NCBI RefSeq assembly: GCF_003428625.2
Contig: NZ_QVQT02000004.1
Location: 186,001 to 250,000 of the forward strand
Source of the DNA: Paracidobacterium acidisoli
GTDB taxonomy: Bacteria; Acidobacteriota; Terriglobia; Terriglobales; Acidobacteriaceae
Reading direction: 5' to 3'
Length of the DNA: 64,000 bases
The position numbers were made by a program, and so were the translations under genes. Below, piece after piece: positions 9,470-43,026 of this stretch; positions within the stretch are counted from its first letter, which is position 1; every line of letters starts with the position of its first letter. Below the pieces are notes generated by a model. It was not told where the DNA came from. It did no database searches and worked only from the letters and a program-made list of their open reading frames with translations.

Positions 9470-9590
9470 GTCCGGCAGCGGATCAGTTTCATGCTGTCTG
9501 GAAGGTCACGACTTCAACCCTGCCGCAAAGGGCACGATAAGTGCGGGGCCTTAGCCCCTGAGGGACGGCTTTTCAAACTGCCCCATTGCT
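9470..9590. repeat. Dispersed intergenic repeat, copy A
   Basis: The stretch between lptD and the DsbA-like gene resembles those at 15217-15360 and 26523-26870: a GGATCAGTTT-like start, a GTCACGACTTCA block, a GGCACG block and a segment ending TTTCAAACTG. It contains the imperfect hairpin GGGGCCTTAGCCCC. No coding sequence of family type is seen here. Its function is unknown. Confidence 0.6.
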
Positions 9591-12998: not shown

Positions 12999-13037
12999 AA
13001 ATCAGCCAGCCAATACAACCTTTCCTGCCTGAATGAT

Positions 13038-13121
13038 GCCCTGTGCCCTGTGCCCTGTGCCCTGTGCCCTGTGCCCTGTGCCCTGTGCCCTGTGCCCTGT
13101 GCCCTGTGCCCTGTGCCCTGT
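13038..13121. repeat. Perfect tandem array, 12 x GCCCTGT
   Basis: Exactly twelve uninterrupted copies of the heptamer GCCCTGT fill 84 bases between the convergent ends of the oxidoreductase and the biotin-carrier gene, stopping two bases before the latter's stop codon. Perfect short arrays change length by slippage. Because 7 is not a multiple of 3, any change here would shift a frame, but no gene reads through it. Confidence 0.97.
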
Positions 13122-13123
13122 CT

Positions 13124-13630
13124 TCACTCAATCACTGCCAGCACATCTCCTGCCGTCACGGTATCGCCGGCTCCGACGTGAATCTCGGTTACCCGCCCAT
13201 CCTTCGGCGACTTCACCTCATTCTGCATTTTCATCGCTTCGATCACCACAATTCCCTGGTGCGCTCTCACTGTCTCGCCCTTTGCCGCCAGCAGCCGCAC
13301 CACGCGGCCCGGCATCGATGCCTTCAGAGTCTTCGGCCCATCGGTGCCTCCGCCATGCGTTCGCCGCGATCGCAATGAGCGCGGATCTTCGACTCGATAC
13401 GCCATCCGCTCCGTTCCCGCGAACAACACCTGCTCCTCCGCTGCGCTCTCTTCCAGCACAATCCGGTAAGAGCGGCCATCGACGATCAGCGAAAGCACTC
13501 CCGGCCGCAGCAGCCGCGCTTCTGCAGTGACGCTCTCTCCGTCGACAGAAGCACGCCAGACGCCGTTCTCCGCCGCCTGCTCCAGCTGCACTTTGCGAAG
13601 CTGCCCGCCCATTTCAATCTCGATCCTCAC
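13124..13630 (-). CDS. Biotin carboxyl carrier-type protein
   Basis: The C-terminal 70 residues form a biotinyl domain: SMPGRVVRLL, then the biotinylation motif E-A-M-K-M with the modified lysine at residue 134, and VGAGDTVTAGDVLAVIE at the end. The N-terminal half (MRIEIEMGGQLRKV onward) resembles the linker region of acyl-CoA carboxylase alpha chains. I chose the GTG at 13630 because it overlaps the biotin carboxylase stop in a GTGA junction with GGGGAG upstream, and because the domain begins there; an ATG at 13666 would overlap 40 bases of accC. The protein would shuttle carboxybiotin between the carboxylase and a carboxyltransferase encoded elsewhere. Confidence 0.9.
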   Translation of the reverse strand: MRIEIEMGGQLRKVQLEQAAENGVWRASVDGESVTAEARLLRPGVLSLIVDGRSYRIVLEESAAEEQVLFAGTERMAYRVEDPRSLRSRRTHGGGTDGPKTLKASMPGRVVRLLAAKGETVRAHQGIVVIEAMKMQNEVKSPKDGRVTEIHVGAGDTVTAGDVLAVIE

Positions 13631-15144: not shown

Positions 15145-15216
15145 GCGGCTCCGCAGGAAGCAAGGAAGGATTCTAAATCACACCGCGCCTCTCCCGGCAA
15201 TCAGCTCTCGCTTCGG

Positions 15217-15360
15217 TAGTGGGTCAGTTTGAATGGTTTGGAAAGGGCATACCTTCAGAGCCTGCGCTGAGCGAAGTCGAAGGATGCCGTAAGAGGTTCA
15301 AAAGGAGCGCAGCTTCAGCCGCTGAGGGATGGTTTGCTTTCTCTGCATTGCAAACTGACC
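15217..15360. repeat. Dispersed intergenic repeat, copy B
   Basis: Upstream of accC lies an element starting AGTGGGTCAGTTTGAAT, then AAAGGGCATACCTTCAG, the widespread motif TGAGCGAAGTCGAAGG (15268-15283), and a tail GCTGAGGGATGGTT ... TGCATTGCAAACTGACC. The tail matches 26819-26870 nearly base for base. Like copies A and C it is non-coding. Confidence 0.7.
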
Positions 15361-15390
15361 TGCGTCCCTCGCTTCCATCCCGAAAGTGCA

Positions 15391-26515: not shown

Positions 26516-26522
26516 AGATGGC

Positions 26523-26870
26523 GTAGTGGGTTAAGACGGAGTAGCGGATCGGTTTGAATAATTTGGGGGAAGGGCACGGCTTCATAGGTTGCGGAAAACT
26601 CTGCTTTGTATCAGGCGGGGTGCGTGGTGAAAGGCTCATTGCTTTGTTTGCATCACAGGTTGCGGAAAACTCTGTTTTGTATCAGGGCACGACTTCAGTC
26701 GTGCCGCAAATGCTTCAGAATCAGCCGGGCTTTAGCCCCTGTGACCTTCTTTTCTGCTGACTTCGCCTCAAATTCCCTCTTTTCGGCAGCCTGTTCAGCC
26801 GTAAGAAGCACAAACATGTGCGGCTTCAGCGCTGAGGGATGGTTGGTTTTTCCTGCATTGCAAACGGACC
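26523..26870. repeat. Dispersed intergenic repeat, composite copy C
   Basis: The gap between cytochrome c and tgt is filled by repeat material: a start like copy B (GTAGTGGGT, GGTTTGAATAATTTGG), two 30-base direct repeats that differ at one base (26586-26615 and 26657-26686), a perfect hairpin GGCACGAC-TTCA-GTCGTGCC (26686-26705), the imperfect hairpin GGGCTTTAGCCC, and a tail nearly identical to 15307-15360. No coding sequence is present. Confidence 0.8.
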
Positions 26871-26904
26871 CCACGATCAGGACGACCAGAATGGGGTAGA
26901 ACGC

Positions 26905-28093: not shown

Positions 28094-28274
28094 GTCATCC
28101 CGACCGGAGCGGAACGAAGTGAAGCGCAGCGGAGGGATCTGCATTCCGTCTCGCGCCCACGAGACTCGGCAGAAGCACTGGGCTTCGGAAGTATCTGATA
28201 AATCGGCCCCTGCAAAGTTTCGTATCAGGGCACGGCTTCAGAACCTGCCCTGAGCGAAGTCGAAGGGTACCGTA
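28094..28274. repeat. Cluster of three repeat types upstream of tgt
   Basis: Three motifs sit in a row. First, 28094-28143, a TCATCCCGACCGGAGCGGA-type element. Second, 28147-28183, a 37-base element (CGTCTCGCGCC ... AGAAGCAC) matched at 42770-42806 with a few changes. Third, 28221-28274, CGTATCAGGGCACGGCTTCAG followed by CCTGAGCGAAGTCGAAGG, the motif also at 15268 and inside mnmG. All are non-coding. Confidence 0.7.
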
Positions 28275-28329
28275 ACGGCCTCCGCCAGCACTCTCATGCA
28301 CGCCGGTCTTTATGGATTTCTGATGGGAA

Positions 28330-42669: not shown

Positions 42670-42891
42670 TGCCCCACCTTCGCGAACCGGGGCCCCGGCG
42701 AACAAAGTTCGCTGGGGCGGGAAGCTAAGGTGGGAAGGCTGGTGTTGTCTGTTCAGAGCTGAGATATATCGTCTCGCGCCAGCGAGACCCGGTAGAAGCA
42801 CCGGGCAACCGGGGTCCCCGGCGAACAAAGTGCGCTGGGGTGATCTTTAGCCCGGTGAATGCAGGCTAAGAAGAGAAGGGGCTTCAGCCCC
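42670..42891. repeat. Composite repeat region between the helicase and obg
   Basis: CCCACCTT (42673) and AAGGTGGG (42727) bracket a 29-base element (42689-42717, GGGGCCCCGGCGAACAAAG...). The same element, with a base added and a base changed, returns at 42811-42840. Between them, 42770-42806 matches 28147-28183. A perfect GGGGCT-TC-AGCCCC hairpin (42878-42891) closes the region. No gene is seen in 42650-43026. Confidence 0.75.
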
Positions 42892-43026
42892 GGGGGTTTT
42901 TCAGCAGTTTCCGAACCTGATCGATCTGCATGAAGAAAGGCACAGCGAAAATCGCCATGCACTTCTTTCAGGGGAAAAAACAGGCCTGAGCAGTTCCCCG
43001 CACATGGCCTGAAATGGACCGGAGTG

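Follow-up and report, generated by a model that had tools for sequence, protein, structure and literature searches.

The dispersed hairpin repeats of Paracidobacterium acidisoli are almost certainly units of the REP/RAYT type, and they obey a near-perfect orientation rule relative to GC skew. They were described in an earlier note on a 64,000-nucleotide stretch of this genome, here called the window. Taken as a whole, our reading is that they are REP-type non-autonomous units spread by a RAYT, oriented through single-stranded DNA (ssDNA) at the replication fork and modified later by insertions and deletions at their hairpin loops, and we consider it very probable. The orientation rule, a second repeat family at 42878-42891 and the splitting of several window copies at a hairpin loop go beyond the earlier note.

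Anatomy, copy number and distribution of the units

The core of the main family, A, is a two-hairpin unit of about 69 nt with the plan GYTTTGTATCAG-[GGCACGRC-TTCA-GYCGTGCC]-n~22-[GGGC-TTYA-GCCC]CTG. The first bracketed hairpin is termed HP1 and the second HP2, the latter also occurring as GCGGC-TTYA-GCCGC; a perfect HP2 lies within 50 nt of an exact HP1 in 66 of 72 cases. Among 82 aligned copies of at least 60 bits the unit borders are sharp, with conservation extending from G(C/T)TTTGTATCAGGG to the end of GCCCCTG, and the spacer between the hairpins is A-rich and variable. A covariance model, R1, was built from an alignment of 42 copies (A1). With this model, a search of the kind suggested in the earlier note was run over the whole 5.0 Mb of the genome and returned at least 147 matches (E<=1), a lower bound in that the best 150 of 4035 candidates from a first look went on to scoring. 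Copies are thus neither rare nor restricted to the window. Plain DNA searches of the same genome gave 48 matches with window positions 26519-26880 as the query and 50 with 15215-15365.

The hairpins with TTCA or TTTA loops that the earlier note had pointed out are real and abundant. Perfect hairpins with arms of at least 6 and such a loop or its complement number 130 in 963 kb, whereas three Markov controls gave 1, 3 and 6, and all perfect hairpins with a 4-base loop number 587 compared with 319-381, the 963 kb being stretches chosen around repeat copies so that these densities are not genome-wide values. A second family, D, is present in the same stretches and follows the plan CCGGTAGAAG-CACCGGGC-TTYA-GCCCGGTG-n~22-GGGGC-TTCA-GCCCC. 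Both families share the two-hairpin layout but differ in their arms and in their tags, which are GTAT in family A and the GT[AG]G form canonical for REP/RAYT systems, GTAG, in family D. Positions 42878-42891, listed in the earlier note as a partial copy, do carry a similarly built two-hairpin repeat, of which they are the second hairpin (GGGGC-TTCA-GCCCC), but this repeat belongs to family D. A further palindrome family, CCCATGTCCG...CGGACATGGG, is found near some units (L018, L019, L020).

R1 units were detected at E<=0.001 in 25 of 41 genomes, P. acidisoli included. Scored copies per family genome range from 0 to 115, and G016, G017 and G019 gave no match at E<=0.001; these counts are lower bounds because at most the best 119 candidates per genome were scored. 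Across the phylum, R1 matched at E<=1e-8 in at least 15 of 149 genomes (own genome included), 13 of them in the same family, with the best 32 candidates per genome scored. Among the matches listed, the exact HP1 motif occurs in Acidobacteriaceae, Terriglobia, Bryobacterales-labelled and similar genomes.

A RAYT clade in related genomes and covariation of the hairpin arms

The earlier note had suggested looking for a REP-associated tyrosine transposase, and such a search was successful in relatives but not in P. acidisoli itself. The own assembly, which is 97.4% complete, contains no Y1_Tnp match at E<=0.001 (5 of 14 control genomes gave matches) and no match at E<=1e-20 to a profile built from four RAYT proteins (A3). 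The cause of the repeats was therefore read from relatives. Y1_Tnp is present at E<=1e-5 in 31 of the 41 genomes (own among them). Strong inverted R1 units lie on both sides of the gene at two of the 30 loci fetched (L193, L197) and very weak ones at a third (L179); the remaining Y1 genes belong to other groups or are without such flanks. Inverted R1 units also surround a RAYT at L249 and in the complete genome of Acidobacteriaceae bacterium ZG23-2 (L235). All four RAYT proteins (L193, L197, L235, L249) score above the NCBIfam REP_Tyr_transpos cut-off (95-112 bits vs 80) and keep PDHxH, WQ and YI..NP.

The four-RAYT profile matched 43 of 60 family genomes at E<=1e-20, the own genome being among the 60. 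Of the 30 loci fetched with it, two (L393, L394) also built the query. At 27 of the 30, R1 lies in + orientation on the left and - on the right, each within 250 nt of the RAYT, and at 20 of the 30 both flanking units reach at least 30 bits. The exceptions are L397, whose right unit is 283 nt away, L410 and L416. Within the genome set G000-G024, R1 units occur in 18 of 18 genomes with a profile match (E<=1e-20; four of them distant, 1e-22 to 1e-24) compared with 4 of 7 without one (p=0.015, calculated by hand). The association with REPs concerns one RAYT clade and not Y1 genes in general. One candidate pair, at L241, was discarded as no RAYT-like ORF was seen there by eye, and none of 62 RAYT/Y1 loci has family D beside it. 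At L172-L178 and elsewhere, other RAYT/Y1 genes have inverted hairpins on either side whose arms are of CCCA type, and several RAYT/REP pairs therefore coexist in Acidobacteriaceae.

Changes in the hairpin arms are modest within P. acidisoli and decisive across the RAYT-flanking copies of relatives. For the latter, 55 units were aligned (A4), taken from 26 of the 30 profile-fetched loci plus L235 and L249 (the right unit of L397 was omitted, as were L405, L410, L416 and L420). Pairing is intact in 97.9% of HP1 cells, all 8 HP1 pairs change on both sides, and 11 of 13 stem pairs overall show both-sided changes, in 90 cells. The covariation score is 0.388, whereas shuffles give 0.094 (sd 0.011) and slid partners 0.114 at most; none of 500 shuffles reached the observed values. 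By contrast, in the own-genome alignment A1 both-sided changes affect 2 of 13 pairs, which is not above shuffles for that measure, with 24 changed cells compared with 8.2 in shuffles. Compensatory arm changes, whose absence the earlier note had named as a counter-argument, are thus present, and the selection on hairpins rather than on sequence that it had suspected is supported by the RAYT-flanking units.

Given that no RAYT was found in the assembly, and that the units of relatives flank a RAYT and have covarying arms, the repeats of P. acidisoli are apparently orphaned REPs of an acidobacterial RAYT. This agrees with the non-autonomous elements or REP-like sites considered in the earlier note, as a RAYT clade is flanked by inverted units in relatives. 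We infer that the units were mobilised by a RAYT, a Y1 HUH enzyme, which P. acidisoli would have lost unless the gene lies in the unassembled 2.6% or so of the genome. The mobile unit would consist of two unequal hairpins in the constant order HP1, HP2, with stems kept by structure, and with a TTYA loop and 5' GTAK tag conserved largely in sequence.

Short high-copy palindromes, a 5' tetranucleotide tag and inverted copies on both sides of a cognate Y1 HUH gene (here seen in relatives) are shared with the REP and RAYT/TnpAREP systems known as REPtrons and REPINs/BIMEs, as far as the consulted parts of their descriptions go (PMC6006769, PMC3116915, PMC8266576); a perfect stem with a TTTA loop is also found in the Mb REP of Marinomonas (PMC8266576). 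Measured against the same portions of these sources, the repeats described here differ in having two unequal hairpins in fixed order and the family-A tag GTAT and, in the own-genome stretches, in having copies of one orientation only, tied to skew, and no RAYT that could be found. Tags of the RAYT-flanking copies in relatives vary (GTAT, GTAG, GTGG and others). The closest precedent, judged from the accessible text, is the TIRtrons of Acidobacteria (PMC3733652), in which RAYT-like genes (TIRYT) are flanked by long inverted repeats and not by GTAG REPs. One sharply defined TIRYT group is acidobacterial (T. saanensis, K. versatilis, A. capsulatum, G. mallensis), and some TIRtron repeats form families, some being called 'double palindromic' in that text. 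The likeness is one of description, and in the parts available the TIRtron text gives no rule that would tie orientation to replication or skew.

Orientation relative to GC skew

Read from HP1 to HP2, the units of P. acidisoli lie on the C-rich strand of the surrounding DNA, skew being measured over at most 16 kb, up to +-8 kb around the masked copy. Within the sampled stretches this holds for 88 of 89 matches of at least 50 bits (64 of 65 when counted by 10-kb bin) and for 129 of 130 of at least 30 bits, a class that between 30 and 50 bits includes family-D units. These 130 form the main count; the other 23 of the 153 R1 matches agree in 22 cases, which gives 151 overall. Both exceptions, C9:266282 (64.8 bits) and L170 (19.9 bits), lie at near-zero skew (-0.02). 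The strand of the matches changes only blockwise along contigs, with + copies where the + strand is C-rich and - copies where G predominates on it; contig C8 contains three such switches and C1 two. When these stretches were scanned for hairpins, the orientation ratio was 126:4, with 61:1, 23:0, 15:0, 11:0 and 11:0 for the five larger arm families; the 23:0 arm is family D, all 23 hairpins of which follow the family-A rule.

Agreement is weaker in relatives. Single copies follow skew in 23 of 26 cases in ZG23-2 (20 of 21 where |skew|>=0.03) and in 30 of 42 in G004 (17 of 20 where |skew|>=0.03), counts that omit inverted pairs and in which 1 of 40 and 20 of 75 matches, respectively, are without a skew stretch. 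Inverted pairs comprise 13 copies in each of these two genomes, and none was found among the 153 R1 matches in the sampled stretches of P. acidisoli. In Centralia_MAG_166 close inverted pairs resembling REPINs/BIMEs were seen (L211, L218, L237, L243, L263, L266, L275), unlike in P. acidisoli. In two complete genomes the strand runs are fewer than expected by chance over all listed copies (96 of 111 and 54 of 69 copies were used in these tests), and are not significantly so for copies at least 20 kb apart (P 0.24 and 0.09).

Local same-strand duplication alone could keep orientation without any replication bias, and the clustering of copies and the largely local strand runs in G049 and G063 are in line with it. 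Agreement with skew is not predicted by such duplication, and the skew domains of the own genome agree in 13 of 14 cases (counted by hand, two-sided p about 0.002), or in 13 of 15 (p about 0.007) if C13 is added, whose sole match scores 19.9 bits and disagrees. We therefore regard duplication alone as unlikely. Target composition was ruled out as the cause since a skew of 0.15 gives at most a 3.35:1 bias for a 4-base target.

Gene direction was likewise rejected, there being no rule by flanking genes and skew not following gene direction. According to crude ORF calls, 86 of the 89 matches of at least 50 bits fall into the classes tandem same (13), tandem opposite (24), convergent (19), divergent (14) and within an ORF (16). 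Regional skew is not determined by gene direction in three genomes (rho -0.05, -0.21, -0.07), the third-position skews of + and - genes agree with each other (rho 0.77, 0.81, 0.59), and 51% of coding bases lie on the G-rich strand. The same gene classes speak against structured RNA elements such as terminators, processing hairpins or small RNAs, whose orientation would be set by transcription. Strong hairpins, the intergenic position of many copies and a stretch of 151 nt (15215-15365) that folds better than most shuffles (z -2.39) would suit RNA elements; two other stretches, of 353 nt (z -1.49) and 133 nt (z -1.45), are unremarkable as single RNA folds, and an Rfam search of the window gave no match at gathering score. 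That the repeats are RNA elements seems extremely improbable.

A role as polar functional DNA sites under selection would account for the strict orientation relative to skew. KOPS and AIMS are polar guides for chromosome processing, and sites like these would be read one way relative to the fork. Such a role is very unlikely in view of the uneven copy numbers among family genomes, three of which gave no match at E<=0.001 with at most 119 candidates scored per genome, of a unit of some 69 nt that has two hairpins and flanks RAYT genes, and of a second family with other arms that obeys the same rule.

Which strand is replicated as the leading one is less evident from markers. In the own genome no skew switch coincides with dnaA, as far as the sampled stretches resolve it, the strand of the single 16S gene is the G-rich one in its 1.5-kb flanks (+0.07, +0.12), a DnaK-like motif is on the C-rich strand, and tRNAs are too few to set polarity. 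Nor does ZG23-2 qualify as a clean two-replichore chromosome, as its skew is patchy. In 44 sampled stretches of its chromosome (G041) the sign of the skew changes many times and not once per arm, which suggests many inversions or another cause. For these reasons the replication strand is inferred from skew.

We consider the coupling of orientation to replication likely. TnpAREP cuts the REP and not its complement (PMC8266576), and IS608 is excised and inserted preferentially at the lagging-strand template, which makes the orientation of elements follow replication (PMC5371812), both according to the consulted parts of these papers. The same coupling is the best explanation here. The orientation rule points to a gain or loss of units that depends on ssDNA at the replication fork. 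The enzyme would act on one strand of folded ssDNA, and copies would be gained or survive in one orientation only relative to the fork; with action on a single strand, copies would follow the regional strand asymmetry. The rule offers genomic evidence for an involvement of ssDNA at the fork. As far as the consulted text (PMC5371812) allows comparison, elements of the IS200/IS605 group such as IS608 and ISDra2 resemble the present system in their Y1 HUH enzyme, hairpin ends and orientation following replication. They differ in that the moving unit here does not contain the enzyme: instead of a tnpA between hairpin ends moving with it, we found 69-nt geneless units and no Y1_Tnp in the own genome.

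In bacterial chromosomes the G-rich strand is usually the leading one. If this applies here, as the single 16S gene also suggests, the tagged strand, which is the C-rich one, is the leading-strand template, a polarity opposite to that of IS608 in the passages available (PMC5371812). Under that assumption, survival of copies that escaped excision fits better than targeted insertion. It is tempting, if rather doubtful, to speculate that REP populations are shaped by strand-selective loss and not by targeted insertion: a RAYT would remove copies whose tagged (TTYA/GTAK) strand is on the lagging-strand template, and the protected orientation would survive as a strand-oriented fossil population after loss of the RAYT. 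If true, and with the G-rich strand leading, strand-selective loss would predict the polarity seen here, and past fork direction and inversions would become readable from REP orientation. Polarity, once settled, will separate insertion bias from excision bias as the biased step, and as the unit, the RAYT clade and a complete genome with both (ZG23-2) can now be named, the mechanism of spread has become testable.

In the portion of the literature covered by our search, no report was found that relates REP orientation to replication strand or skew, and within those bounds a near-perfect rule relative to skew is new for REPs. Tandem REP arrays of P. fluorescens SBW25 are all forward near 2 Mbp and all reverse near 4 Mbp, and no rule is drawn from this in the section consulted (PMC3116915).

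Copies in the window and their composite forms

The dispersed repeat is present where the earlier note had placed it, with R1 matches at four of its places, all on the + strand (Table 1). Its stretch 26523-26870 is composite as stated there but does not represent a single unit. Comparison by eye with intact copies shows a full copy inside an older one that is split at its hairpin loop: the older copy breaks off in its own HP1 loop and resumes on the far side of the complete unit.

Table 1. Repeat copies in the window and their parts
Feature	Positions	Strand	Basis
Decayed copy	9493-9566	+	R1, 39.7 bits
Copy within terminal inverted repeats like GGTCAGTTTGAA	15222-15360	+	R1 at 15235-15330, 37.4 bits
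Older copy, 5' part, ending in its own HP1 loop (GGGCACGGCTTCA)	26546-26584	+	query part 23-69 matches C11:346219-346264
Left outer arm ACAGGTTGCGGAAAA	26655-26669	+	score 9; reached by 7% of control pairings, weak alone
Full family-A REP unit (HP1 + spacer + HP2)	26674-26747	+	R1, 83.8 bits, model positions 1-74
HP1 GGCACGAC-TTCA-GTCGTGCC	26686-26705	+	sequence; exact in hairpin scan
HP2 GGGC-TTTA-GCCC	26727-26738	+	by eye; helix 2 of A1
Right outer arm TTTTCGGCAGCCTGT	26780-26794	+	weak outer-arm pairing with 26655-26669
Older copy, 3' part (HP2 + right terminal inverted repeat)	26798-26870	+	query part 280-358 matches C11:346290-346371
Partial copy: left side and HP1 with same ~25-nt insert as at 15.2 kb, no HP2 seen	28217-28275	+	R1 at 28217-28258, 21.5 bits
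Family-D copy	42781-42893	+	by eye: GTAG tag, CACCGGGC arm, insert, TTTA, GCCCGGTG arm, GGGGC-TTCA-GCCCC

Interrupted hairpins are not confined to this place. HP1 left halves without an intact right arm make up 33 of 123, some of them being chance matches. An insert of about 25 nt, GCCTGxCCTGAGCGAAGTCGAAGG, lies at the CTTCA loop or in the 3' half of HP1 in the window copies at 15.2 and 28.2 kb (approximately at 15258-15283 and 28242-28265, the former judged by eye) and at L129, L135, L139 and L158; the piece turns up repeatedly in the HP1 3' half, and the hairpin loop looks like its insertion site. The two window copies are 86% alike over 28227-28275 and 15244-15292, and 26830-26870 is 88% alike to 15320-15360. 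At the split CTTCA loop a new unit may also begin, led by a CAGGTTGCGGAAAA-like stretch, as seen in the window and at L141 and L149. In six copies (L128, L137, L139, L144, L150, L162) an HP2-like right arm (GCCGC) follows immediately on the left arm and loop of HP1, and these fusions look like deletions between two GGCTTCAGCC stretches. The family-D copy at 42.8 kb has a 39-nt insert next to its loop, the same spot as in the family-A splits. With ~25-nt inserts, new units, fusions and the family-D insert all lying there, the hairpin loop is a recurrent junction. In the proposed scheme, insertions and deletions at hairpin loops, subsequent to the spread of the units, would have produced the composite forms in the window.

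Outer inverted repeats of several unrelated sequences surround a minority of units (window 15222-15360; L119, L145, L152, L165). They raise the question of MITEs derived from a DDE transposon, whose terminal inverted repeats would be the mobile ends and the hairpins mere passengers. Such repeats score at least 10 at 11 of 81 copies compared with 2.3% of 399 control pairings, and a unit lies within 9 of 9 terminal-inverted-repeat pairs found, in stretches that were chosen around units. Most copies are nevertheless without an outer repeat, the arms that do exist are of several unrelated sequences, and DDE elements are expected in both orientations whereas these copies are oriented; we judge a MITE origin highly unlikely. 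Elsewhere in the window, a tandem array of the heptamer TGCCCTG occupies positions 13037-13120, near the start of ORF 13033..13530.
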